Numbered from the stretch's first letter, positions 3,042-37,144 are shown. The stretch is DNA of 64,000 nucleotides from Candidatus Scalindua sp. SCAELEC01 (GCA_004282745.1 SHMT01000027.1:1-64000), one strand, 5' to 3'. The notes: generated from the letters alone by a model not told the origin. Numbers and translations are program-made.

Positions 3042-5984
3042 CTATCTGAGGTAAATTTTTAACTGTTCTGCAAGAATTCGAATATGGGGTTCGGCGAGTA
3101 TATCCTGTCGGTTGCAGGGTATCTCATGAATGGGTGAATCACAATCAGTGAACTCCCTCCAACCCAGCGATGGTTCATATGCAATACGACGAGATTGTTT
3201 GCGCGCGGTAAAGAAAACAACTTGACCGTTGTATTGTTTTGGACAGTATTTGTTAAAGGCCTTATCATTCTCTCTTGCTACTACCTCAAGAATATGGGTC
3301 ATAGAATGTTTATGGTTACTTTTATGTATTCTTGTTAGTAGTAGTTTGCTCAACTTACGAAGCCTTGACTGGACGATAACTTTTCCTCTCTTAACACTTT
3401 CAGATATGTAAGACATTTTGTCCTTGGAGCTAAATTTTGCAAACCTTTCTTTCTCAAGGATGATTCTATCATCCAGCTGAAAGATGAGGTGGTGAAGAGA
3501 CGTAATACCAGGAAGCGATTTTGGGTAGCCTGGAGCTGGAGCCTGGATCATTACTACAAGGGCAATCGCTTGACCGTCCGCTTTGAGTTGTTGAGCAATC
3601 TCCATGGCCATCACTCCACCAAAGCAGTATCCCCCTAGATAATAGGGTCCCTTGGGTTGAACCCTTTTGATCTCCTGTATGTATTGAGTGGCCATCTCCT
3701 CTATAGTGCGGTTTTCTACAATGCTGCCGCTCAGGTTTTGATCTTGCAGGGCATACACGGGTTGGTGTTCACCCAAGTGATGAGACAAATCATAGTAACC
3801 AAGAACGTTACCACCGTGAGCGTGCATAAGGAAAAAGGGTAATTTCGAGCCACCGGGATGAATCTCTACCAAAACATTCCAGGGAGTTGAATGTTTCTCT
3901 TTTCGAAGTATATAGGCTAATTGATCAATGGTTGGCGCCTCAAAAAGGGTTGACAGGGGAAGTTTTTGATCAAAAACCTGCTCTAGTTTGGCAAATATGC
4001 GAACGGTATCTAAAGAGGTACCTCCCAAATCAAAATAGTTGTCGTAAATACCTACCTGTTTAACCCCAAGAAACTCTTGCCAGATATTGGCGATGGTTCG
4101 TTCGATTTGATCTGTAGGTGCTACATAGTCAACCTGCAACGCTTCTCTCTGTTTTTGAGATCGAATATCAATTATTTTTTGTATCTGCTCTGCACTGTGT
4201 AAATTTATAGCGATGTTGTTCATCTGTTTGGATCTCGTTTGAATGTCAGACGGTTGTTTTTCTGAGACCTGATATTTAGTATCTTTCTTGATCGATTGAT
4301 TATCAGATGTATATTTCTTGGAGTTTGGAGTGTAGGTAATTGACTTTGCGTACTCAGTTGGTAGTCTGAACTGGAACCCCTCTTCATATGGCTGCTTATA
4401 GCTTGAACCTATCTCTTCCAAAAAGTTGAGGGCCGGTTGATTCCTCTCCGTCGGGGTGTAGTGAACTTCAACATAGTCAAGCGCACGCTCATGAGCTATC
4501 TCTCCTAATCGGTTCAGCATCCTATGCTCAACTCCCTTCCCTAACACACGACAACTTAACAAAAAAGTGTCCACCCGTATATGGCGACCACAAGTTTCAA
4601 AAATAATAACCCCAACCAGGCCATAGTCCCCAAAACGGTCGCTAACCTCAACGACGATGGATTCTGCTGTATCTCCTTGATAGATTTTTTTGATCTCGGT
4701 TTCAGAGTATCTGATAGTGGTAAAATTAAATTGGTTTGTTCGCTGTGTAAGTTGTGACATTCTGGTAAGTTGGGAGAGCTTTGGTCTGGATATTTCAATT
4801 TTTAATTCAAGACCGGCCATAAAACTTTCTAGAGACAAAGAGTCCTGAAAGTAACGTTCTCGCTCCCTGTTTTCGCTGTACATGGCTGTTCGTTGTTTAT
4901 CCTCTTCCGTGATCTTCAAATGGTCAAAGGCCCAAACATGTTTAAGAAATTGATGGATTTTTTCCGGTTCACGGGGAAGCAGAAGTGTTAAAACCTGTGG
5001 ATAGGTTGATTGCACTTCGGCGCACTCAACAGGATTGTCGTCAACAAAGATAAAACTATCCAACCCAAGTTGCAATTCATCTGCCAAGGATTTAATATTC
5101 TCTGATTTGGGTTTCCAATTGATACGCCACGATACAAGATGATCTCGGCTAAGGGGTATCTCAGGACGTTGAGCAAAGACTTCCATCACGTCTTTTTGAC
5201 TATTTTTACTGCACAGACAGAGCAGCATACCGGCCGCATGCTGCTCAACCATAAACTCCTGTAACTTTTGCCTGGAGGTATCTATTTCAATTCCGTATGG
5301 TCCATCTTCACCACAGACGCCTTTCCATATGGTCTGATCGCAATCCAGCACAACCACCTTATATGGAGTGCTTATTGTGCTGTAAAGCTTTCGTGCTACC
5401 ATGCTACCCAGCCCGGTGTAGAAAGTCTGAGTATAGGGAACATGACCAAGTCTATTACTGTCAGGATCGTAGTACGTAGAGACTGGATAGGTACCCATCA
5501 ATTCTGATGACCTCACCAAGTATACGTTTTCAATTTCTTCCAATCCGGACAACATCATATATTCCATTTGTTTAAAGTAAGCTTGTAGCGTACCAGTAGT
5601 AACAACCGCAGGAGATTCTGGACAAACGACAACAAGATACGGTGTGGAGGAGTGTTTTACGGCAGACTTTAATGCAAGAACAAGGTTGGCTACATTTTCT
5701 TTGATCCTTTCCCTTCCCAGATCTTCTTTTGTCGCTAAATTATATTCAGTGTTCTGATTCCCTAGTAGCCAATCTTCAAAGCGAACAAGGATAACATTCA
5801 TTCCATTTTTTTGCTTATTAAGCAGACTAACGGAATCTAGAAGTTGTTGAAAGACTTGGTTATAAGGAGCAAATTGAATATCGAATGAAAGCTCTAGTTC
5901 TTGAGCCCAGAAGTTGAGAGACTCTGCTATTGGTTCACTTGTAAATGTAGCTGAGATAGTAAGCGTTATTTTAGGATTATTCAG
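3042..5984 (-). CDS. FkbH-type HAD-IIIC / GNAT-like / ACP / thioesterase fusion
   Basis: Four-part carrier protein. FkbH proteins load a glyceryl unit from 1,3-bisphosphoglycerate onto a carrier thiol. Here the HAD core (LDCDQTIWKG, later FVDDNPVEC) follows an FkbH N-terminal domain and precedes a GNAT-like domain, an acyl carrier domain with phosphopantetheine Ser in DLGGTSLD and a C-terminal alpha/beta-hydrolase thioesterase. The first ATG is at 5801, but clear FkbH sequence (ATFTSEPIAESLNFW, APYNQVFQQLLD) continues 61 codons upstream to a CTG at 5984 with AAGGA seven bases before it and a stop two codons upstream. I therefore call a CTG start, about 980 residues. The thioesterase nucleophile is Cys (GYCFGG), and Arg sits where the catalytic His is expected (PCNRQDIL). 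It probably prepares an acyl or glyceryl decoration of the glycan. Confidence 0.75.
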   Translation of the reverse strand: MNNPKITLTISATFTSEPIAESLNFWAQELELSFDIQFAPYNQVFQQLLDSVSLLNKQKNGMNVILVRFEDWLLGNQNTEYNLATKEDLGRERIKENVANLVLALKSAVKHSSTPYLVVVCPESPAVVTTGTLQAYFKQMEYMMLSGLEEIENVYLVRSSELMGTYPVSTYYDPDSNRLGHVPYTQTFYTGLGSMVARKLYSTISTPYKVVVLDCDQTIWKGVCGEDGPYGIEIDTSRQKLQEFMVEQHAAGMLLCLCSKNSQKDVMEVFAQRPEIPLSRDHLVSWRINWKPKSENIKSLADELQLGLDSFIFVDDNPVECAEVQSTYPQVLTLLLPREPEKIHQFLKHVWAFDHLKITEEDKQRTAMYSENRERERYFQDSLSLESFMAGLELKIEISRPKLSQLTRMSQLTQRTNQFNFTTIRYSETEIKKIYQGDTAESIVVEVSDRFGDYGLVGVIIFETCGRHIRVDTFLLSCRVLGKGVEHRMLNRLGEIAHERALDYVEVHYTPTERNQPALNFLEEIGSSYKQPYEEGFQFRLPTEYAKSITYTPNSKKYTSDNQSIKKDTKYQVSEKQPSDIQTRSKQMNNIAINLHSAEQIQKIIDIRSQKQREALQVDYVAPTDQIERTIANIWQEFLGVKQVGIYDNYFDLGGTSLDTVRIFAKLEQVFDQKLPLSTLFEAPTIDQLAYILRKEKHSTPWNVLVEIHPGGSKLPFFLMHAHGGNVLGYYDLSHHLGEHQPVYALQDQNLSGSIVENRTIEEMATQYIQEIKRVQPKGPYYLGGYCFGGVMAMEIAQQLKADGQAIALVVMIQAPAPGYPKSLPGITSLHHLIFQLDDRIILEKERFAKFSSKDKMSYISESVKRGKVIVQSRLRKLSKLLLTRIHKSNHKHSMTHILEVVARENDKAFNKYCPKQYNGQVVFFTARKQSRRIAYEPSLGWREFTDCDSPIHEIPCNRQDILAEPHIRILAEQLKIYLR

Positions 5985-6325: not shown

Positions 6326-8212
6326 CTACTGTGAATCAAGAAAACAGCGATGCCAAAGTTCCAGACTGATCAATCCCCATAAATGATGGTAATGTTCAGT
6401 TGTACCCGATTCAAATTCTTTGATTAGCTTTTCAACATACACATAATTAAACAGACCTCGCTTATTTATTGCAGCCGGTGATAATGTATCATAAATCAAG
6501 GGGCGTGCTTCATTTTCCATCCATTTATAAATAGGGATAGGAAAACCCTTTTTCTTTCTGTCAATAATTATTTTTGGTAATAATTTACGGCCAGACTTTT
6601 TTAATAAATACTTACGAGTCAGATTTTTCAGTTTTAGATTTGGTGGAAGGGAAGCTGCAAACTCAACAAGTTTGTGGTCTAAAATTGGGATACGTGCTTC
6701 CAGTGATGCTGCCATACTTAGCTTGTCAGCCCGAAGAAGAAGATAGTCAGGCAGCCATAGTTTAGTGTCAACATAGAGCATACGATTTAATGGTTCGGTA
6801 GCATCCGTGCGGGCTAGTTGCTGTGCAAACGCTTGATTCCCAGCTATGCCATTGAACTTGTTTTGTAAGTCAGGTGTTAATAACGCTTGTTTGCTATCAT
6901 GATTAAATAAAGGGAACCATGTAGCAAATCTTTGCGCTTCGTCGACTTGACAGAGTGCATTGAGCGCTATCCTTTGACGACGTAAGCCAGTGGTACGGTT
7001 ATTTACCATCTGGGCTAGTGATTTGATTGATTTGGGTATAAGTCGGAAGAGAGGAGAGAGTCGTTCTCCGGAATAGCGGGCGTACCCGGCAAATAATTCA
7101 TCTCCTCCTTCTCCTGTTAGGACCATCTTTACGTGTTGTGAAGCCAATTTTGAAACCATATATGTGGCGACAGTTGCCTGATCTGCTATCGGTTGATCAA
7201 GATGCCAGATAACCTTTTCAGCCATATCTACAAAATCTCTTGCTGTGATAATAATTTCGTGATGATCAGTTTTATACTGTTGTGCAATCAAACTGGCATA
7301 TGGTAGTTCATCAGTAATTCCATTCTCCTGCTTGAAGCCGACCGAAAAAGTTTTGACAGGTTTGTCCATAATCTGGCTCATAAGGGCCACGATGGTGCTA
7401 GAGTCAATGCCCCCACTAAGAAATGCTCCAAGAGGGACATCACTTCGTAAGCGCAACTTTATAGATTCACGAAGCAACTCCTCAAGTTGCTCGGCGTAGA
7501 CCTCTTCACGCTGCCGGGGGTGGTCATTATTAGTAAAGGAGAGGTCCCAGTATTGGCGGATATTGATCCCATGCGAATCGCAACTTAATGTATGGCCAGG
7601 TGGAAGCGATTTAATACCTTCGAACATTGTTTGTGGGGCCGGTACATATTTGAGTGACAGGAAATTATTCAATGCATCCAAATCCAAACTGGCTTTAACT
7701 TTGGGATGTCGCAGGATAGATTTTATCTCTGAGCCAAATACCAATTGTTTTCCTATGACCGTATGGTAGTAAAGGGGTTTAATTCCCAATCGGTCACGGG
7801 CAATGAACAGACGACGGTGGCGTTTGTCCCACACTGCAAAGGCGAACATCCCCCTCAGTTGGTGAACACACTCCTCACCCATATCCTCGTACAGGTGAAC
7901 AATAACCTCTGTATCACTGGCAGTAGTAAATGTATGACCACGCTTTTGAAGCTGCTCTCGAAGTTCGAGGTAGTTATAGACTTCTCCATTGAATACCGTA
8001 ACAATAGTTTCATCCTCATTATAGATAGGCTGCTTTCCACGGGCCAAATCAATGATGCTCAGTCTCCGCATTCCCAAAGCCAGGTTTCTGTCAAAATGAA
8101 ACCCCTCGTCGTCTGGTCCTCGATGACGAATAATGTCAGCCATACTTTTTAATAGTTCACCATCAATGGTTGAGCTATTGTCATGCAGGTAAATTCCGCA
8201 TATTCCACACAT
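6326..8212 (-). CDS. asnB: Asparagine synthase-type glutamine amidotransferase (EPS-associated)
   Basis: 628 residues. The N-terminal class II glutaminase domain begins MCGICGIY, with Cys2 as nucleophile after Met removal. The synthetase domain has the pyrophosphate loop LSGGIDSST near residue 265 and a GEGGDELFAGY segment. It would transfer glutamine-derived ammonia to an adenylated carboxylate: either aspartate or, as in XrtA/PEP-CTERM EPS loci where such a 630-residue amidotransferase is standard, an unknown carboxylate on the glycan or carrier. Its position between an FkbH carrier fusion and glycosyltransferases favours the EPS role. The ATG has AAGG eight bases upstream. The gene symbol reflects homology only. 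Confidence 0.85.
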   Translation of the reverse strand: MCGICGIYLHDNSSTIDGELLKSMADIIRHRGPDDEGFHFDRNLALGMRRLSIIDLARGKQPIYNEDETIVTVFNGEVYNYLELREQLQKRGHTFTTASDTEVIVHLYEDMGEECVHQLRGMFAFAVWDKRHRRLFIARDRLGIKPLYYHTVIGKQLVFGSEIKSILRHPKVKASLDLDALNNFLSLKYVPAPQTMFEGIKSLPPGHTLSCDSHGINIRQYWDLSFTNNDHPRQREEVYAEQLEELLRESIKLRLRSDVPLGAFLSGGIDSSTIVALMSQIMDKPVKTFSVGFKQENGITDELPYASLIAQQYKTDHHEIIITARDFVDMAEKVIWHLDQPIADQATVATYMVSKLASQHVKMVLTGEGGDELFAGYARYSGERLSPLFRLIPKSIKSLAQMVNNRTTGLRRQRIALNALCQVDEAQRFATWFPLFNHDSKQALLTPDLQNKFNGIAGNQAFAQQLARTDATEPLNRMLYVDTKLWLPDYLLLRADKLSMAASLEARIPILDHKLVEFAASLPPNLKLKNLTRKYLLKKSGRKLLPKIIIDRKKKGFPIPIYKWMENEARPLIYDTLSPAAINKRGLFNYVYVEKLIKEFESGTTEHYHHLWGLISLELWHRCFLDSQ

Positions 8213-27153: not shown

Positions 27154-27888
27154 TTACTTCTTCCTGCTTAGCCAGGCATGGCTGATGATTGCGGGAATTG
27201 TCAGAAGTAAGATTTTTATATCGAGCTTGAATGAGAGATGTCTCACATATTCGATATCATAGCGTATCATTTCGGTGAAGGTGGTAGAATTTTTACCATT
27301 AATCTGCCACAAACCAGTGAGGCCTGGTAAAACGTTTAGTCGGACACAATGCCAAAGCTTGAATTTCTCAACAGCATAAGGTAGTTCCGGTCTTGGCCCA
27401 ACCAGGCTCATCTCTCCCTTTAATACGTTGAAAAGCTGCGGTAACTCATCAATGCAGCTGTTCCTTAATAAATTACCAAAAGGAAAAATTCTTGGATCGT
27501 TTTTGACTTTAGTTAGTACAAGATCGTTTTCAAACTCTTCGCAAATTTGGTTCGCGTGCAGAGAACTATCAGCATTTATATACATTGTGCGGAATTTCCA
27601 TATTATAAAGGGCTTACCGATATACCCGGTTCTCACCTGTTTAAAGAAAACAGGACCAGGAGAGACGATCTTTATTAATAGATAAGTAACAACGAAAACA
27701 GGGAGAAAGAGAATAATCAAAAATGATGCTCCAATGAGATCAATTAAGCACTTCCACAGAGGGATTTGTGAGACTAAAAAGTGTTCCAGGCTTTGGGGAT
27801 TCTCAACAAAAACATACCCGGAAATATTGTCACAAGTTAAAAGAACAGAAGAGTCGTTTTGTCCGTTGCCTTTGTAAACGTTGTTCAT
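27154..27888 (-). CDS. Initiating sugar-phosphate transferase (WcaJ/PssY type)
   Basis: 244 residues. One membrane segment (LIGASFLIILFLPVFVVTYL) precedes the conserved bacterial sugar transferase domain: VSPGPVFFKQVRTGYIGKPF, IWKFRTMY, LPQLFNVLKGEMSLVGPRPE, and LPGLTGLWQINGK. It transfers a sugar-1-phosphate from a nucleotide sugar to undecaprenyl phosphate, the first committed step of the repeat unit. It lacks the extra N-terminal helices of full-length WcaJ. Its ATG overlaps the stop of the degenerate GGDEF gene by four bases, so both are made together. Confidence 0.9.
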   Translation of the reverse strand: MNNVYKGNGQNDSSVLLTCDNISGYVFVENPQSLEHFLVSQIPLWKCLIDLIGASFLIILFLPVFVVTYLLIKIVSPGPVFFKQVRTGYIGKPFIIWKFRTMYINADSSLHANQICEEFENDLVLTKVKNDPRIFPFGNLLRNSCIDELPQLFNVLKGEMSLVGPRPELPYAVEKFKLWHCVRLNVLPGLTGLWQINGKNSTTFTEMIRYDIEYVRHLSFKLDIKILLLTIPAIISHAWLSRKK

Positions 27889-28340
27889 GATGTTGTATCA
27901 CTGTATTGTGTGGAAACTTTCATTAAAAAACCAGTTTTTCGTTGATCTTTTTGCTGGTTGTAAGGCCAGATTGATGGATAAGCAAACACTTTAACAATTA
28001 TGACGTCTGATCTGTTTTTTATACTTTTTTGAATTACTTCAGCAAATCTTGCTGCATTTTTTGCGGAAGTATAAGGCAATACTATACCGATTTGGTTTTC
28101 AGTAAACCAGCCTACCCGATCGATAGAACGCAGTCTGGACTTTAGAAAATAGCAAAGATCATCAATAAAGACTTGAGTCTTGATGATATGTTCGATTTCG
28201 AACACAATCATTGAAAAATTATGAGAACTACGATCAGATCTTGACTGTTCTTGCATAATGATATTTCTCATCTCATCAATTTTAAACAGATTGAGATATT
28301 GATTTGAATTCAATAAGTTTTTCAGGTTATCCTTCTTCAT
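27885..28340 (-). CDS. Degenerate GGDEF-like domain protein
   Basis: 151 residues. The order of elements follows a GGDEF domain: strand FSMIVFEIEHI, helix LCYFLKSRLRSIDRVGWF, then FTENQIGIVLP in place of the (G/S)GDEF active-site loop, and a final helix NAARFAEVIQKSI. The catalytic Gly-Gly-Asp/Glu-Glu-Phe residues are absent, so no diguanylate cyclase activity is expected. Such remnants may bind nucleotides or partner proteins. The four-base overlap with the initiating transferase gene suggests it regulates or scaffolds that enzyme. Family assignment is by eye and moderate. Confidence 0.6.
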   Translation of the reverse strand: MKKDNLKNLLNSNQYLNLFKIDEMRNIIMQEQSRSDRSSHNFSMIVFEIEHIIKTQVFIDDLCYFLKSRLRSIDRVGWFTENQIGIVLPYTSAKNAARFAEVIQKSIKNRSDVIIVKVFAYPSIWPYNQQKDQRKTGFLMKVSTQYSDTTS

Positions 28341-28511: not shown

Positions 28512-31229
28512 CTAATAATAGATTTGTCCTTTTTTTACCTGATTCAGGACAGTACCAATGATCTTGGTTTGGGACTCTTTTATGCAATTTACCGCAGCAT
28601 TGGTATCCTTGATAGATGCCTGACCAGGCTTGATTACAAATATAACCCCGTCAACCATCGAAAACAGTGGCTTAAAACTATTCAATGTATCCAGTATTGG
28701 GGGAGCGTCGACAAGGATTACATTAAAGTGTTGTTTTAGGATGTCCAAAAACTTTGAAAGAAGCGTAAAGAAGAGTAAGCTACCAGATTTTTCACTCCCT
28801 CTGCCTGCCGGTAAGAGCGATAGATTTGGTTCATTTAACGATACCACATGGGATAATATCTCGTCTTCCAGATAACGGTTCCCTCCCATGCACCCCAAAC
28901 GATTGATAATTGGTACGTAATCCTCCCAGAAATGGATTTTTTTGTCTTCGTAGCTCTTAATACTTGCCGGTTCAAAAGAGAAAGAGCCCTGTTTCCAACT
29001 GAAAAGTTTTTGAAGTTGTTCTTCCATCTGTAGCTTAATTGGTCCATGCAATTGATTTTGATTTATATAACCTGCATTAAGGAGAATATACCCTAACGGC
29101 AGGCCAGTACGCTGATTTCGCTCCAGGGCATCTTTCAACTGACACTCTGTAATGACACCACCATTCAAGAGCATGGTTCCTAATCTATTGGAGCAAGGGA
29201 CATCACGGTTTTGCAGGTGAAGGAAACAGCCCTTATCAAAAACGGCCGTCATAGTCTGAGAATCGTTTGTAATAGTAAGTCTACCACTCTGTTTATTTAG
29301 GGCAATGAGGGAAAACAGGTCGTCGACACTGTAACTATCCAGTGTCCCCTCTTGTATATTGAGAGATAGGACTTTTGATATGGCCCCAAGAAGCCCTTTT
29401 TCCATACTACCATTTATCCCAAACATATCATGGAGAGATGGCCGCTGTACGTCAGCGTCTACCATGAGGACTCGTAGACCTTGCCTCGCTAAGTTTATGG
29501 CAGATCTTGCAAGTACCGAGCTTTTCCCTTCACCGGAGGTAGTGCTCTCAACCATCAGTATCTGACCTGACTTATCCGTCTGCATTAACGAAAATTTAGG
29601 GAGAAGATTGGTCATAATGTCATATTGGTAATAGTTTCGGTCATATCTTCGCTCACCGAGAAGAGACTCGTCTGTCAGTAACGCAGGAATCTTCTTTAAT
29701 TTAAGGGATTTGTCGTAGGGGATTATTCCGAGTACTGACATATCCAGATGCCTTGAGACATCTTCAGGCGTTTTCACGGACTTGTCCATATACTCTAAGA
29801 AAAAAGCAAGACCCACACCAAAAACCAGAGAAAAAATTATCGATAAAAGTATGTTTAAAGCCTTTTTGGGTTTTATGGGAGACCGTGGCAACTTAGCCTC
29901 ATGAATGATACGGATATTGCTCCTTCTCGTATCACCAATCAGGCTGGTTTCTCTCACCTCTTTGAGAAGGATGTCATAGATATTTTGGTTGCTCTCAGCC
30001 TCTCGCTTTAACACATCATAGTTAATGGTCTTTTCATTAAATGAGAGTTCCTCCTGCTTATAATTATCCAATTCGTTTTGGAGCACGTCTACTTTAGATA
30101 CAGCCCTATCAAGCTCCGCTTTTGTTGCTATTTTAATCTGCTGTACCTCTAAAATTATATCCTTTTCCAATTTATTAAGTCTTGAATTTATTTCAAGTGT
30201 CTTCGGGTGTTTGGCCCTATAGATAGAAGCCAACTTAGTTTTTTTAGCCTTAAGATCAACCAGTTCAAGACGGAGTTTCTGGATAACGGTATCCTCCTTA
30301 AATTCCGGCAGGGAAAAAGGATTTTCTCTGCCGAGAGAGAATGTTTGGAGCTGGTCATATGCAGTCTTTTTTTTCATCATCTCTGCATTGGCTTGAATAA
30401 GAAGGTAATTCAGTTCCACAAGTTTATGAGATACGATGTTTTCCCTGTCCATAAAGGATACTATGTTGTACTTTTTCTTATAATTGTGGATTGCAAGTAC
30501 AGACTCCTCTACCTTCTTTTTCTGCTCCTCAAGTTGTATTTTTAGCCAATCTATTGTCTTCTGAAATTCTCGATATTGTAATTCGATATTTTTTTCAACA
30601 AATGCATGAGCATGTGCGTTGGCAACACGAACAGCCATCTCACGTGTAGGCCCTTTAAAACTGATGTTAACGAGGTAGCTTGTCCCTATAGGCTCTATAT
30701 TTATATTTGACCTATACCATTTCGCCACCTCATCCATGACAAAAGCACTATCTGATGTTTGCATCTCAATTGGGTCTTTTGAGTCAATGTTCTCTGGTAA
30801 TTTTTCACTACTATTTGATTTTGCAAATGGCGGAGTTGAGAAAATCGCTTTTTCAACATCAACGCCATAAATGGCATCAAACTCTTTCTTTAGATCTAGA
30901 TTTTTAATAACTTCGTGTACCAGATCAGGGTTTGATAATAAATGAATCTGGGTCTCAAAATCATCTTCTATAGTCCTATACTCTCTAGACATAGCACTCT
31001 CTAAACTTTGCTCAGATAAGAAAGGTCTCTCTATCTCTAACTGAGTTGTTGCCATATAGACTGGAGAAGTAGTAAATGAATATATTGAGACAAGAGACAC
31101 TGTGACAAGGAACAGTGTGATTATTAACCACTTGTGCTTTTTTATGACATTAAGCCTGTCTGTTAAGTGTATTTGTTGCGTTAATTGTGATGGCTCACGT
31201 ACTGAATTGCGGTTTGAATTCTGATTCAT
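28512..31229 (-). CDS. Wzc-type tyrosine autokinase with inserted DUF4388/MshEN-like module
   Basis: 905 residues. N-terminal Wzz domain with a first membrane helix (HKWLIITLFLVTVSLVSIYS), long coiled-coil region (about 190-430), second helix near 465-485 (LSIIFSLVFGVGLAFFLEYM), then a BY-kinase: Walker A SGEGKSS near 570, Walker A' LMVDADVQRPS near 590, Walker B VILVDAPPI near 838. Between A' and B a block of about 165 residues (630-796) interrupts the kinase. It resembles DUF4388 and contains two 24-residue MshEN-type motifs (RLGTMLLNGGVITECQL..., then PLGYILLNAGYINQNQL...) five residues apart. The C-terminal Tyr cluster is reduced to GQIYY. It likely controls chain length and export. Confidence 0.8.
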   Translation of the reverse strand: MNQNSNRNSVREPSQLTQQIHLTDRLNVIKKHKWLIITLFLVTVSLVSIYSFTTSPVYMATTQLEIERPFLSEQSLESAMSREYRTIEDDFETQIHLLSNPDLVHEVIKNLDLKKEFDAIYGVDVEKAIFSTPPFAKSNSSEKLPENIDSKDPIEMQTSDSAFVMDEVAKWYRSNINIEPIGTSYLVNISFKGPTREMAVRVANAHAHAFVEKNIELQYREFQKTIDWLKIQLEEQKKKVEESVLAIHNYKKKYNIVSFMDRENIVSHKLVELNYLLIQANAEMMKKKTAYDQLQTFSLGRENPFSLPEFKEDTVIQKLRLELVDLKAKKTKLASIYRAKHPKTLEINSRLNKLEKDIILEVQQIKIATKAELDRAVSKVDVLQNELDNYKQEELSFNEKTINYDVLKREAESNQNIYDILLKEVRETSLIGDTRRSNIRIIHEAKLPRSPIKPKKALNILLSIIFSLVFGVGLAFFLEYMDKSVKTPEDVSRHLDMSVLGIIPYDKSLKLKKIPALLTDESLLGERRYDRNYYQYDIMTNLLPKFSLMQTDKSGQILMVESTTSGEGKSSVLARSAINLARQGLRVLMVDADVQRPSLHDMFGINGSMEKGLLGAISKVLSLNIQEGTLDSYSVDDLFSLIALNKQSGRLTITNDSQTMTAVFDKGCFLHLQNRDVPCSNRLGTMLLNGGVITECQLKDALERNQRTGLPLGYILLNAGYINQNQLHGPIKLQMEEQLQKLFSWKQGSFSFEPASIKSYEDKKIHFWEDYVPIINRLGCMGGNRYLEDEILSHVVSLNEPNLSLLPAGRGSEKSGSLLFFTLLSKFLDILKQHFNVILVDAPPILDTLNSFKPLFSMVDGVIFVIKPGQASIKDTNAAVNCIKESQTKIIGTVLNQVKKGQIYY

Positions 31230-31940
31230 GATTTTGTCGGTAAAGGGACTAAAGGGGTTATTACAAAGGGTGAATTAAGTGGATCAAAGCACTGGGTGTA
31301 GAAAACAATTGATAGTATTCTCGTATATTAAGAGGTACTTCTCCCCAACCACTAAACACAGCTCCGCCCTCTGGGTTACCTACTAAGAGGTAACTTATAT
31401 CAGGTTCATTTCATGGATACTCATCTCATAATAGTTTTCAGATAAAATACGAGACAAGATTGTGCGAGTATAAGTGCAACGAAGATTTGGTTTCCGGCCC
31501 GCCCGGCCGGGTAAAACCAAATCGGTTTTAGTATATTCAAAAACGGCTAAAGTTGTTTTAAGGCAATAAATCTTGAATATTGTTACGCAAACATTTGGCC
31601 AGCAAATTCAGAAAGGTATAAATATTTGGACGAAAAGATATAAAGGGTTTAGATAGCGAAACATAGATTAAAAATTTTATTTTATGAAGATACAAAATCT
31701 CCTGATTATACCGTTGGATTATGTTTACCAAATCACACAATTTTTTTTATGTTGATGTAACATGTAAAAATATATAGAGTTATATAATTCAACAAAAACT
31801 GACAATTCATTAAGGGTGCTAATTCGTATTGTATAGCTTTATAAATACTCCCTTTAACTACTATCATGATTTTCTAAGTACTGTTTGCCTAATAAAGGGT
31901 CTTCCTTACGATTCCAAATAATATAACATTGAGAAAAACC
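31230..31940. other. Long untranslated leader between terminator and kinase gene
   Basis: About 710 bases separate the leader terminator from the kinase ATG. It contains repeat R1 copy b (31416-31536) and otherwise AT-rich sequence. A 60-codon minus-strand frame at 31558-31740 has no ribosome site and no recognisable family, so I do not call it. If transcription reads through the terminator, this whole stretch would be mRNA leader. Confidence 0.5.
31416..31536 (+). repeat. Interspersed element family R1, copy b
   Basis: Starts GGATACTCATCTCATAATAG and ends AAATCGGTTTTAGTATATTC. Shorter than copies a and c (about 120 bp), with the same ends and the same central GCCCG...CGGGTAAAACC hairpin. 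It lies in the untranslated leader ahead of the tyrosine kinase gene. Confidence 0.65.
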
Positions 31941-31998
31941 AAAAAAAAAAGCCTTACGCCTAGAGTATTTTTATAAATACATTCGGCGGTAAGGCTTT
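31941..31998 (-). terminator. Intrinsic terminator at end of candidate riboswitch
   Basis: On the minus strand AAGCCTTACCGCC (31997-31985) pairs with GGCGTAAGGCTT (31960-31949) with one bulged base, followed by a run of ten T. The loop holds a further GTATTT/AAATAC pairing. The 5' arm overlaps the 3' edge of the candidate aptamer, so aptamer and terminator pairing are partly exclusive. That is the standard arrangement of a transcription-controlling riboswitch. Confidence 0.85.
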
Positions 31999-32077
31999 CT
32001 TTAGAGATGTTTCCGTATTCTCTATAAGACCCTTTACTCTGTGCCCCCTGATCTCTCAGGGTTTACCTTTATCGAAG
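31985..32077 (-). ncRNA. Candidate cyclic-di-GMP-I-like (GEMM) riboswitch aptamer
   Basis: On the minus strand: AAAGGTAAACC, then a perfect 6-bp hairpin CCCTGA-GAGA-TCAGGG with a GNRA loop (32061-32046), then GGCACAGAGTAAAGGGTCTT, then a second perfect hairpin TAGAGA...TCTCTA (32024-32002). The order and spacing match the cyclic-di-GMP-I pattern GGCAAACC / GNRA hairpin / ACGCAAAGCCACGGGTCTA / second helix. By eye about 17 of 23 bases after the first hairpin agree with the consensus I remember, but ACGCAAAGCC is altered. The downstream terminator and EPS kinase gene support a regulatory role. Ligand not proven. Confidence 0.5.
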
Positions 32078-32141: not shown

Positions 32142-32169
32142 ATTCTAACGAATGATGTTTTTCTGTCAA
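32142..32169 (-). promoter_or_regulatory. Sigma70-type promoter of the riboswitch/EPS leader
   Basis: TTGACA (32169-32164) and TAGAAT (32147-32142) are separated by 16 bases on the minus strand, a near-consensus pair. Transcription would start near 32135, followed by a small hairpin (TAATCAC...GTGATTA) and then the aptamer about 55 bases later. Confidence 0.65.
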
Positions 32170-33742: not shown

Positions 33743-36700
33743 ATGAATTGTCAATCATTACGTTGCTTTGCACAAACGGTTTTTTTTATTCTGATCGCGT
33801 CAACGATAACATTTGGAGAGGTAAAACACGATATTAAGATTAAGCTAGATCCAGAAAGTCATCGGGGTGAGGTCGTTGATAAAATTACCTTGCCTTCTGC
33901 ATCATGGAAAGCGGAATCAATCAATTTCACGATTCACCAGGGGCTCAAACCTGAAATTTTAGAAAAAGATGTCATTTTAAGAAAAAACTTTGGTGCCGAA
34001 GTCAGTCGATTTTTTAGCAGTAATCCATCGCTTAAACAAAGCACTATTCAGATAGAGCTTTTTGAGGTCAGGTTGCCTCCAGGGGTCAACCAGTTTACCC
34101 TCAAATATGAGGGTGAGATTTATCATCCTGTGAAGGAGTATGGAGAGGAGTACGCCCGCAGCTTTAGCGTATCACCCGGCATAATTTCAAAGGAAGGCGT
34201 ATTCTTAAGCGGGTCCAGCTTCTGGTATCCCCATTTTGAAGATCAACTGGTAACGTTTCGTATGGACGTGGAGTTACCGGCAGGCTGGTCATCGGTCACG
34301 CAGGGGGTACGTATAAAGCATGATACCGGTACAAACAACCGGCGTGATGTCTGGGAGACGGACAAACCTCAGGAGGAGATTTATCTTATATCCGCTGAAT
34401 TTACCGAATATGGGCAGGCTGCAGGGGCAGTTGATGCCATGGCATTTTTGCGACAACCTGATTCCCAACTCGCGCAAAAATATCTCGATACCACCGCACA
34501 GTACCTTGAGATGTATCGAAAACTCCTTGGACCGTATCCCTACAAAAAATTTGCGCTCGTAGAGAATTTCTGGGAAACAGGATATGGCATGCCCTCTTTC
34601 ACATTGCTAGGCCCCAAGGTAATCCGTTTTCCTTTTATCCTCCACTCTTCATATCCCCATGAGATTTTACATAACTGGTGGGGTAATGGCGTATACACTG
34701 ATTATGAAAAAGGGAACTGGGCTGAGGGGCTAACTACGTATCTTGCCGATCACCTCATAAAAGAGCAGCGTGGTATGGCTGTTGAATACCGTCGTTCTGT
34801 TTTACAAAAATACACAAACTATGCAAAGGGTAACAAAGATTTTCCTCTGACGGAATTTCGATCGAGGCATAGCGCCGTTACAGAGGCGGTAGGATATGGT
34901 AAGACCATGATGCTGTTTCATATGCTGCGTCAACAATTTGGTGATAAGGCCTTTGTCAAGACCCTCCATCAATTTTTTCGAAAATATCAGTTTAAGGTGG
35001 CTTCCTTTGATGATGTTGAAACTACCTTCAATACCGCTAATGAAGAACAGATAAAACTTTTGTTTGAACAGTGGGTGAAGAGGACCGGAGCTCCATCCTT
35101 GAGAGTCGGTCAGGCTATGACAAAACCGCAAGGTGACGGTTACGTTTTGTCAGCCACCCTTGAACAAATTCAAGATTCAGAACCCTATCGGCTGAAGCTG
35201 CCAATTGCCGTTCACATGGAAGGTGTCGAAAACGCATATCAGTCGAGTGTTGATATCAATGAGAAAGAGTACCAATTGAGGCTCAACCTTCCTAAAAGAC
35301 CAATACGGCTGGACGTTGATCCGGAATTTGACATATTTCGTACGTTAGACAATAATGAAACTCCACCTGCCATAAGTCAGGTATTTGGTGACGAAAAGGT
35401 ATTGGTCCTCATACCTGAAGCTGCAGCAGAACCAATTCGACAGGGGTATCAGGATCTGGCAAATGTTTGGAAGAGAGGTCGCTCAGTGAATCTAGAGATT
35501 ATGCTTGATAGTGAGTTGGAGGAGTTACCAACAGATCATACCGTGTGGGTGTTTGGTTGGGAGAACCGTTTCCGTCACATAGTAAAAAAGGCCCTGTCTG
35601 ACTATGGTTACGAAGATAATGATAGACAAATTGAGATCGAAGGTACCGATCTTGATCGTAAGCGCCACTCTATTGTCGTGATAGCACGACACCCCTCCAA
35701 CAGCGCACATGCACTGGCCTGGCTTGCTACCGATAATGAGGCTGCTATACCGGGATTGGGAAGGAAGCTTCCTCATTACAATAAGTATAGTTACCTCGCT
35801 TTTACCGGTGATGAACCTGACAATGTATTGAAGGGACAGTGGCCCGTAATCAATTCACCGATGTCGGTTGCCGTTAGGCAGAGTGATGGTAAAAAAGTGG
35901 AGTCAACGATTGCTAAACTTGCACCACGTGCTGCTCTGGCTCAATTGCCTCCCGTTTTCTCTGAAGCGAGAATGTTGGATGATATCAAATACCTCGCTTC
36001 TGAAGAATTAAAGGGAAGGGGCCTTGGTACTCCCGGGTTAGATAAAGCAGCCGACTATATTGCAAAACAGTTTGCTCATGCCGGAATACAGCCCTATGGA
36101 GATGGTCCAGATGGTTATTTTCAGATTTGGACTGAACAGGTAGACAATCCTGAGCGTACGGTTACGATTAAAAATGTTATTGGGATACTTCCGGGTGTAA
36201 ATCCAGAATGTGAGGGTCAAAGCGTGATAATTGGCGCACACTACGATTCTCACGGACTCGGTTGGCCTGATTGTTTTCAAGGAAACGAGGGGAAAATACA
36301 CCCAGGTGCTGATGATAATGCCAGTGGTGTTTCTCTCTTATTGGAATTGGGGCGTTTACTTGGTAAAAAATGGCAACCTGAACGCACGATCATATTCGTA
36401 GCTTTCAGTGCAGAGGAGGCCGGAAAGCTTGGTTCTCTCCATTATGTTAAAGAGGCAAAGAGATATCCTATTTCTCAGGCTATGGCGATGATTAATCTTG
36501 ATACCGTCGGCCAACTAGGCACCGACGCTCTTACCATATTTGGTAGCTACTCTGCACGTGAATGGGTACATATCTTTCGCGGAGCAGGTTACGTAACCGG
36601 TGTACCAATAAAACAGTCAACCATTGATACCGGAAACGGTGATGAGTTGAGTTTTCTTGAAGCCGGTGTGCCCGCCGTGCACTTCTTCAGTGGTGCACGA

Positions 36701-37144
36701 GATAACTACCATCGCCCCACTGATACTGTTGATAGGATCGATACAGCAGGTTTGGTTAAAACTGCGGCTGTCCTGAAGGAAGTTGTAGAGTACCTTGCAT
36801 CAAGACCTGAACCGCTCACGTCAACACTCACGACAGTTTCAGGTAGTGCTTCCATAAACACAAAGCAACCCCATACGACAAGGAGTGTCTTCCTGGGAAC
36901 CGTTCCAGACTTTGCTTATCGTGGGGAAGGCGTTCGCTTAAGCGGTGTGACTCCTGAGTCACCGTCCGCTGAAGTAGGCCTTCAGGAGGGAGACATCATT
37001 ACTCGAATCGGAGAGAAGGTAATCAAAGATCTGCAGACCTATTCTCATATCTTAAAGTCGTTGCAGGTAGGTAATGAGATTACGATTGTTTTTCTGCGTG
37101 ACAATATTGATCACTCGGTCACAACGAAGGTGGTTGCCAGATAG
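33743..37144 (+). CDS. Secreted M1 aminopeptidase - M28 peptidase - PDZ fusion
   Basis: 1133 residues. Signal peptide (TVFFILIASTITFGE), then an M1-type gluzincin domain with HEILHNWWGN and the third zinc ligand Glu in WAEGLTTY 18 residues on. The exopeptidase GxMEN motif is altered to YGMPSF. The second half is an M28 domain: IIGAHYDSHG, GADDNASGVSLLLELG, FVAFSAEEAGKLGS and HFFSGARDNYHRPTD supply zinc ligands and general base. A PDZ domain ends the protein (GVRLSGVTPESPSAEVGLQE...GDIITRIGEK). It probably degrades peptides in the periplasm or outside. The terminal PDZ may position substrates. Two unrelated zinc peptidases on one chain is unusual. Confidence 0.8.
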   Translation: MNCQSLRCFAQTVFFILIASTITFGEVKHDIKIKLDPESHRGEVVDKITLPSASWKAESINFTIHQGLKPEILEKDVILRKNFGAEVSRFFSSNPSLKQSTIQIELFEVRLPPGVNQFTLKYEGEIYHPVKEYGEEYARSFSVSPGIISKEGVFLSGSSFWYPHFEDQLVTFRMDVELPAGWSSVTQGVRIKHDTGTNNRRDVWETDKPQEEIYLISAEFTEYGQAAGAVDAMAFLRQPDSQLAQKYLDTTAQYLEMYRKLLGPYPYKKFALVENFWETGYGMPSFTLLGPKVIRFPFILHSSYPHEILHNWWGNGVYTDYEKGNWAEGLTTYLADHLIKEQRGMAVEYRRSVLQKYTNYAKGNKDFPLTEFRSRHSAVTEAVGYGKTMMLFHMLRQQFGDKAFVKTLHQFFRKYQFKVASFDDVETTFNTANEEQIKLLFEQWVKRTGAPSLRVGQAMTKPQGDGYVLSATLEQIQDSEPYRLKLPIAVHMEGVENAYQSSVDINEKEYQLRLNLPKRPIRLDVDPEFDIFRTLDNNETPPAISQVFGDEKVLVLIPEAAAEPIRQGYQDLANVWKRGRSVNLEIMLDSELEELPTDHTVWVFGWENRFRHIVKKALSDYGYEDNDRQIEIEGTDLDRKRHSIVVIARHPSNSAHALAWLATDNEAAIPGLGRKLPHYNKYSYLAFTGDEPDNVLKGQWPVINSPMSVAVRQSDGKKVESTIAKLAPRAALAQLPPVFSEARMLDDIKYLASEELKGRGLGTPGLDKAADYIAKQFAHAGIQPYGDGPDGYFQIWTEQVDNPERTVTIKNVIGILPGVNPECEGQSVIIGAHYDSHGLGWPDCFQGNEGKIHPGADDNASGVSLLLELGRLLGKKWQPERTIIFVAFSAEEAGKLGSLHYVKEAKRYPISQAMAMINLDTVGQLGTDALTIFGSYSAREWVHIFRGAGYVTGVPIKQSTIDTGNGDELSFLEAGVPAVHFFSGARDNYHRPTDTVDRIDTAGLVKTAAVLKEVVEYLASRPEPLTSTLTTVSGSASINTKQPHTTRSVFLGTVPDFAYRGEGVRLSGVTPESPSAEVGLQEGDIITRIGEKVIKDLQTYSHILKSLQVGNEITIVFLRDNIDHSVTTKVVAR

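Follow-up and report, generated by a model that had tools for sequence, protein, structure and literature searches.

Can a second messenger act directly on the ATPase core of a polysaccharide co-polymerase? The question is raised by a gene of the anammox bacterium Candidatus Scalindua sp. SCAELEC01, found in a 64,000-nucleotide stretch of its genome (the window), which a sequence-only reading had taken to encode a tyrosine autokinase with a DUF4388/MshEN-like, possibly cyclic-di-GMP (c-di-GMP) binding sensor spliced into its ATPase core. Control of polysaccharide making by c-di-GMP is well known in synthase systems (BcsA PilZ); in Wzx/Wzy systems the accepted co-polymerase switch is tyrosine phosphorylation, and in BY-kinases phosphorylation of the tyrosine tail is thought to drive assembly and disassembly of the ring.

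The gene and its protein

The open reading frame at 28512..31229 lies on the minus strand, starts with ATG and encodes 905 amino acids; a plus-strand reading was rejected, as it contains stop codons throughout. Its features, in window positions, are the following.

28512..31229, minus: PCP-2/BY-kinase-type gene with an inserted PATAN-MshEN module (ORF, Pfam/NCBIfam, fold match to CapAB/Wzc/Etk/BceF)
30897..31175, minus: Wzz domain, residues 19-111 (Pfam PF02706, 38.9 bits, cut-off 25.5)
29799..30011, minus: GNVR domain ahead of the second membrane helix, residues 407-477 (Pfam PF13807, 56.8 bits)
29517..29549, minus: Walker A, ESTTSGEGKSS, residues 561-571 (sequence; conserved in the family)
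29439..29471, minus: Walker A', VLMVDADVQRP, residues 587-597 (sequence; both Asp conserved)
28830..29390, minus: insertion, residues 614-800, between Walker A' and Walker B (alignment)
28956..29351, minus: DUF4388 (PATAN) match, residues 627-758, with MshEN nested inside (Pfam PF14332 and whole-genome scan)
29028..29186, minus: 53-residue MshEN-type c-di-GMP motif pair (NF053729, 5htl structure match, relaxed motif found twice)
28698..28724, minus: Walker B, NVILVDAPP, residues 836-844 (sequence; conserved)
28515..28562, minus: short C-terminal tail with two Tyr only (...KKGQIYY; sequence)

The Wzz and GNVR domains and the membrane helices all belong to one chain (domains by Pfam, helices by sequence reading only), and the P-loop domain is matched in two pieces, residues 556-617 and about 800-901, with DUF4388 between them (Pfam and NCBIfam). 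The combination of Wzz, GNVR and split CbiA/AAA matches therefore points to a fused Wzc-type protein and, by its domain content, the 905-aa product is a Wzc-type polysaccharide co-polymerase/BY-kinase-type protein. It resembles the BY-kinases (PCP-2) Wzc, Etk and CapAB in its Wzz-GNVR-kinase layout, Walker A, A' and B motifs, predicted kinase fold and location in a polysaccharide cluster, but differs from them by an insertion of about 168 aa, the absence of both EX2RX2R and NPxELL, and a tail poor in Tyr. An AlphaFold model of the cytosolic part (pLDDT 79) matches CapAB, BceF, Etk and Wzc (Foldseek E down to 6e-12), with TM-scores, normalised by target, of about 0.7-0.78; since the full cytosolic model still matches BY-kinases, the insertion is predicted to leave the core intact.

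The inserted module and its putative ligand

Between Walker A' and Walker B the alignment places 187 residues of the 905-aa protein where canonical BY-kinases have 18-19. DUF4388 (PF14332) matches this insertion with 73.5 bits against a cut-off of 25 (E=2e-20), and the NCBIfam c-di-GMP motif model NF053729 matches residues 682-728 with 49.5 bits against a cut-off of 38 (E=2.6e-13). Of the two profiles put forward by the sequence-only reading DUF4388 was borne out and T2SSE_N was not, as the Pfam MshEN/T2SSE_N model gave no match up to E=1 in the protein. The proposed layout of two 24-residue motifs with a five-residue spacer lies exactly at 682-705, 706-710 and 711-734; motif I is RLGTMLLNGGVITECQLKDALERN, the spacer is QRTGL, and motif II is PLGYILLNAGYINQNQLHGPIKLQ. 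These are the only two fits to the relaxed MshEN motif (PMC5013675) in the whole protein, at the correct pitch of 29 residues, and just 26 of 20,000 shuffles contained even one such 24-mer.

For the insert AlphaFold predicts PATAN strands and four helices (pLDDT 80). The top Foldseek match of this model by probability is c-di-GMP-bound MshE (5htl; rmsd 0.9 A over 53 columns, 36% identity, probability 1.00), for which the E-value is only modest (0.086) because the match is short. As modelled, the insert contains the four-helix MshEN_N fold; with profile matches, alignment and predicted fold in agreement, the placement of a DUF4388/MshEN module in the ATPase core has held. MshE and PilF GSPII share with it the 53-residue motif pair and the predicted four-helix bundle (at most 0.9 A from 5htl), but there the module is the N-terminus of a secretion ATPase, whereas here it is nested in PATAN inside a MinD-like P-loop ATPase and carries N24 and P1 variants. 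Stand-alone PATAN-MshEN proteins from other Planctomycetota align with the module (about 180 aa) over its whole length; in the DUF4388/PATAN-MshEN proteins of that phylum (e.g., L042-L055) it heads ordinary multidomain proteins, unlike its splicing into a kinase core here. The main text of Wang et al. (2016) gives REC, HD-GYP, CheA and Ser/Thr kinase among the partners of MshEN, and BY-kinase is unlisted there (PMC5013675).

Binding of c-di-GMP has to be judged against the strict consensus, Arg1 and Gln24 in both motifs, from which each motif departs at one position, motif I having R and N and motif II P and Q. Both departures had been noticed beforehand and turn out to be family-wide, N24 of motif I being present in 19 and P1 of motif II in all of the 22 aligned members; almost throughout the fused clade, motif I has N (or S, H, C) at position 24 in place of the phosphate-contacting Q. 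The family keeps the contact positions R1, L2, G3, L17 and L21 of motif I and L2, G3, L17 and Q24 of motif II. Leu residues and the LG backbone provide the main hold on the guanines in MshE, and changes of Arg9 and Gln32 cost about fivefold in affinity or less (PMC5013675), while PilF GSPII-B, in which position 1 is Lys and Leu, binds with an affinity of 6 nM (PMC11731258). P1 in motif II and N24 in motif I are therefore compatible with binding, and on motif and predicted fold together the insert probably binds c-di-GMP.

The replacement of Q24 in motif I and R1 in motif II, together with an extra and invariant Pro (P730) within the fourth MshEN helix, would also suit a dead sensor on a live scaffold, i.e., a non-binding module kept for structure or docking, be it for ring stability or as a dock for the sugar transferase or Wzx/Wzy. 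Such non-binding MshEN folds exist in XpsE (PMC5013675) and in PilF GSPII-A, which is near consensus and does not bind even with its motif restored (PMC12002112), and in the split relatives from Desulfobacterota described below the motif is largely eroded yet the module stays, which argues for a value of the module beyond ligand binding there. XpsE, however, has lost eight key residues, compared with two deviating positions here, both of tolerated kinds, and the best-conserved residues of the protein in the anammox-type clade include those at the ligand-contact positions. NF053729 matches 22 of 22 family members, whose mean pairwise identity is 0.77 in the MshEN stretch against 0.62 in the P-loop/A' stretch; 14 of the 53 MshEN columns are invariant, and conservation across the cytosolic domain of this clade peaks in that stretch. 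As a c-di-GMP riboswitch and PilZ fusions nearby (see below) also weigh against a dead sensor, we hold that explanation to be improbable. Our preferred reading, with a probability of roughly 0.6, is that the gene encodes the co-polymerase of a Wzx/Wzy-type exopolysaccharide cluster, which would be gated directly by c-di-GMP via the inserted module.

Relatives, kinase hallmarks and origin

The host genome has four DUF4388 genes, all of them inserted kinases (the gene at 28512..31229, L005:7934-10573, L006:6429-9167 and L007:9189-11858), in addition to an ordinary insert-free BY-kinase with ESYRALR (contig 17, L012) and a 488-aa GNVR protein. The search for other inserted BY-kinases, which had been recommended, also recovered relatives in three phyla, as judged from MAG titles: Planctomycetota (the anammox order), Desulfobacterota and Nitrospirota. 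The named relatives are from Scalindua, Jettenia, Brocadia, Loosdrechtia and Anammoxibacter, and further ones are from four MAGs labelled Proteobacteria, Deferribacteres, Desulfobacterales and Nitrospirae. In the host phylum, represented by 392 genomes, matches over the full length (>520 bits) occurred only in the anammox order, in at least 14 of its 36 sampled genomes, a count by which near-universality in anammox bacteria was rejected; the next-best match in the phylum had 78 bits and covered the module alone. The inserted kinase was further present in at least 12 of 96 genomes of one order of Desulfobacterota and in at least 8 of 345 genomes of that phylum, and in Nitrospirota it was found only in the two seed genomes. 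It should be noted that these genome counts are minima, as a limited number of candidates was scored per genome.

The genome is a draft in 104 contigs with 4.7% contamination, which could point to an assembly or gene-fusion artefact. Against this stand the four full-length paralogues, none with internal stops, and the orthologues in independent assemblies from several genera and three phyla, with an insert of 186-193 aa in every member compared with 18-19 aa in canonical proteins and 37 in L012 by the same alignment. Since independently assembled genomes share the insert, an assembly artefact was rejected, and we give an origin by artefact a negligible chance.

As to the tyrosine autokinase claimed for this locus, the BY-kinase-type fold and the Walker motifs stood, while kinase activity was weakened. 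The octamer-interface motif EX2RX2R is absent in the 905-aa protein and in 22 of 22 aligned clade members; it forms half of the BY-kinase octamer contact, and both trans-autophosphorylation and polysaccharide synthesis have been described as requiring it (PMC3795738). In the fused anammox-type clade the NPxELL segment is also gone and the tyrosine tail mostly lost, with the Walker motifs retained; tail Tyr number two in the 905-aa protein, 0-6 across the clade and 2-6 in most anammox members, and two members, L023 and L025, have none at all. With no EX2RX2R and only two tail Tyr the protein may therefore be an ATPase/co-polymerase and not a tyrosine kinase. Genuine tyrosine autokinase activity is thus doubtful from its sequence, and the fused clade as a whole would seem to have lost the tyrosine-kinase role.

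If c-di-GMP, through the module, only tuned the trans-autophosphorylation of a true tyrosine autokinase with an otherwise normal BY-kinase cycle, this would be a sub-case that partly overlaps with the preferred reading and does not fully exclude it. The intact Walker A, A' and B motifs and the tail Tyr of most anammox members are in keeping with such activity, as is L084 from Desulfobacterota, an almost canonical kinase (EAYRTLNTN, Tyr-rich tail; all kinase hallmarks save the second Arg) with a near-complete MshEN motif (K-L-G...Q / P-L-G...Q); the loss of EX2RX2R in every anammox-type member, of NPxELL, and of all tail Tyr in L023 and L025 nevertheless makes it unlikely. Phosphorylation-independent BY pseudokinases are known in EcpK and HfsB, which are alike in BY-kinase fold, Wzx/Wzy pathway and eroded phosphorylation features (PMC12004946). 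EcpK is a separate scaffold protein with its Walker motifs lost, whereas the 905-aa protein keeps these motifs and has a putative c-di-GMP sensor. The sequences of the fused clade fit a place between BY-kinases and pseudokinases, with Walker motifs intact, phosphorylation hallmarks lost and the c-di-GMP module conserved beside the nucleotide site.

Many of the Desulfobacterota copies are split, with a separate Wzz/GNVR gene beside a kinase of 415-440 aa that carries the same insertion. These split kinases have mostly kept EX2RX2R, NPSELL and the Tyr-rich tail and their MshEN motifs are mostly eroded, the reverse of the fused clade, where the sensor motif is kept and the kinase hallmarks are lost. 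As essentially one tree split is behind it, this inverse pattern of kinase hallmarks and MshEN quality is only suggestive. The Desulfobacterota inserted BY-kinase L087 combines some kinase hallmarks with a near-complete MshEN motif, and position 1 of its motif II is Leu, as in the very tight binder PilF GSPII-B.

In a tree built from the kinase part alone, the fused clade sits on a long branch with 100/100 support. The anammox copies fall into a single clade (98/95) that lies within Nitrospirota and Desulfobacterota copies, a position that suggests transfer of the inserted kinase into the anammox lineage. The inserted kinases are not all united on this tree, but the AU test does not reject their descent from one insertion event (p=0.29).

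Riboswitch, cluster and proposed switch

Upstream and downstream of the gene the following features were found.

32142..32169, minus: promoter-like TTGACA-16-TAGAAT just ahead of the aptamer (consensus scan 11/12, which alone is no proof of function)
31981..32077, minus: c-di-GMP-I riboswitch aptamer, about 750 nt upstream of the start codon (Rfam RF01051)
31940..32003, minus: intrinsic terminator hairpin and T-run re-using the aptamer 3' strand, a predicted expression platform (fold, sequence)
27885..28340, minus: degenerate GGDEF-like protein, the next gene after the kinase, GGDEF signature lost (PF00990, 15.3 bits, below cut-off)
27154..27888, minus: initiating sugar transferase (Bac_transf) of the polysaccharide cluster (Pfam, 207.9 bits)

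The terminator fold has -26.7 kcal/mol (z -5.8) and competes for the aptamer 3' strand, so that ligand should block termination and the element should be an ON switch. The stretch between riboswitch and kinase is free of sizeable genes, but the leader is about 700 nt long; we infer the link between the two from the layout, from which we lean towards a c-di-GMP ON switch for the inserted-kinase gene. A survey of 457 kb of the genome beyond the window, of which 400 kb were sampled elsewhere and 57 kb surround the paralogues, yielded no other c-di-GMP riboswitch; at an upper density of 3 per 400 kb, the probability that chance alone would put one no more than about 850 nt ahead of one of the four genes, on its strand, is roughly 1%. 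The riboswitch was not found at the loci of the other three paralogues or of the nearest and most other relatives; as it is missing from most relatives' loci, it is no fixed part of the system. The only exception is Brocadia L019:1722-1829, where a c-di-GMP-I-GGC riboswitch of the same terminator design is followed by a CapD gene and then the inserted kinase. Within the leader, 31480-31540 (minus) reads by eye as a strong G+C-rich hairpin with no T-run.

The identity of the ligand can be weighed on the same element. Against the variant family RF03167 the aptamer scores 54.4 bits, just under the gathering score of 59, and MshEN binds cGAMP, more weakly (PMC5013675), both of which would allow another cyclic dinucleotide, e.g., 3',3'-cGAMP, as the ligand. 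The RF01051 score of 56.6 bits against a gathering score of 35, and the many GGDEF and PilZ domains of the genome, leave this alternative very little weight. Above cut-off the genome holds 10 GGDEF domains, 13 PilZ domains and 14 MshEN motifs, so c-di-GMP is very likely made and read in the host.

Several other genes of these neighborhoods may be recorded. A region related to the GGDEF-like protein at 27885..28340 is fused to a sugar transferase in Anammoxibacter (L024:7817-9028). WecA/MraY-type Glycos_transf_4 transferases with a C-terminal PilZ (L006:2832-4265 and L014:1915-3348) lie upstream of inserted-kinase copies, and a STAS-like and PilZ protein (L006:967-1776) lies upstream of one copy. 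Upstream of the riboswitch is a polysaccharide lyase-like protein (PF14099; 32470-33324, minus); 33743-37144 (plus) encodes 1133 aa that read like an aminopeptidase (HEILH...) with M28-type peptidase and PDZ domain. In the polysaccharide region a 919-aa protein with carrier (PP-binding) and thioesterase domains (3042-5801, minus) is adjoined by an asparagine synthase (6326-8212). Group II introns occur several times in the host genome sample (L105, L109, L110) and once near the Brocadia L017 kinase.

Under the preferred reading the product would be an inner-membrane PCP-2 protein with a PATAN-MshEN sensor in the Walker A'-Walker B loop of its P-loop ATPase/BY-kinase domain. A rise in c-di-GMP would lead the MshEN bundle to bind its ligand, the change would be relayed via the stalks of the insertion to the nucleotide site and/or the ring contacts, and the altered ring assembly or ATP turnover would in turn alter chain length or export; c-di-GMP would probably also turn the gene on through the riboswitch. 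If the module binds, allosteric gating of the ring or the ATPase is likely. A bolder version, which we put forward tentatively and at somewhat less than even odds, is that in the anammox-type clade ring assembly and disassembly are switched by direct c-di-GMP binding in the ATPase core and no longer by tyrosine phosphorylation; the protein would then be a phosphotyrosine-independent, second-messenger-gated co-polymerase for Wzx/Wzy export, with the riboswitch controlling the same gene.

A functional parallel is NfrB, a c-di-GMP-activated glycosyltransferase in which MshEN controls an exopolysaccharide pathway, but which is not a Wzc-type co-polymerase (PMC8669469); the 905-aa protein has a weak profile match to NF008411 (NfrB). 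A 2025 review of c-di-GMP control of polysaccharide making names synthase systems only (PMC12220298). In the openly licensed literature searched, no description of this protein or of a BY-kinase with this insertion was found, in line with the earlier statement that no such BY-kinase was known. In sludge studies cited in PMC11224092 the EPS of anammox granules correlates with c-di-GMP.

The inserted kinases, present in at least three phyla, are a natural case of a P-loop kinase interrupted midway by a sensor domain. If the preferred reading is true, a c-di-GMP receptor in the ATPase core of a co-polymerase would join c-di-GMP control and Wzx/Wzy export, and would offer a one-protein test of the effect of a second messenger on chain length. 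The finding also bears on the EPS of anammox granules.
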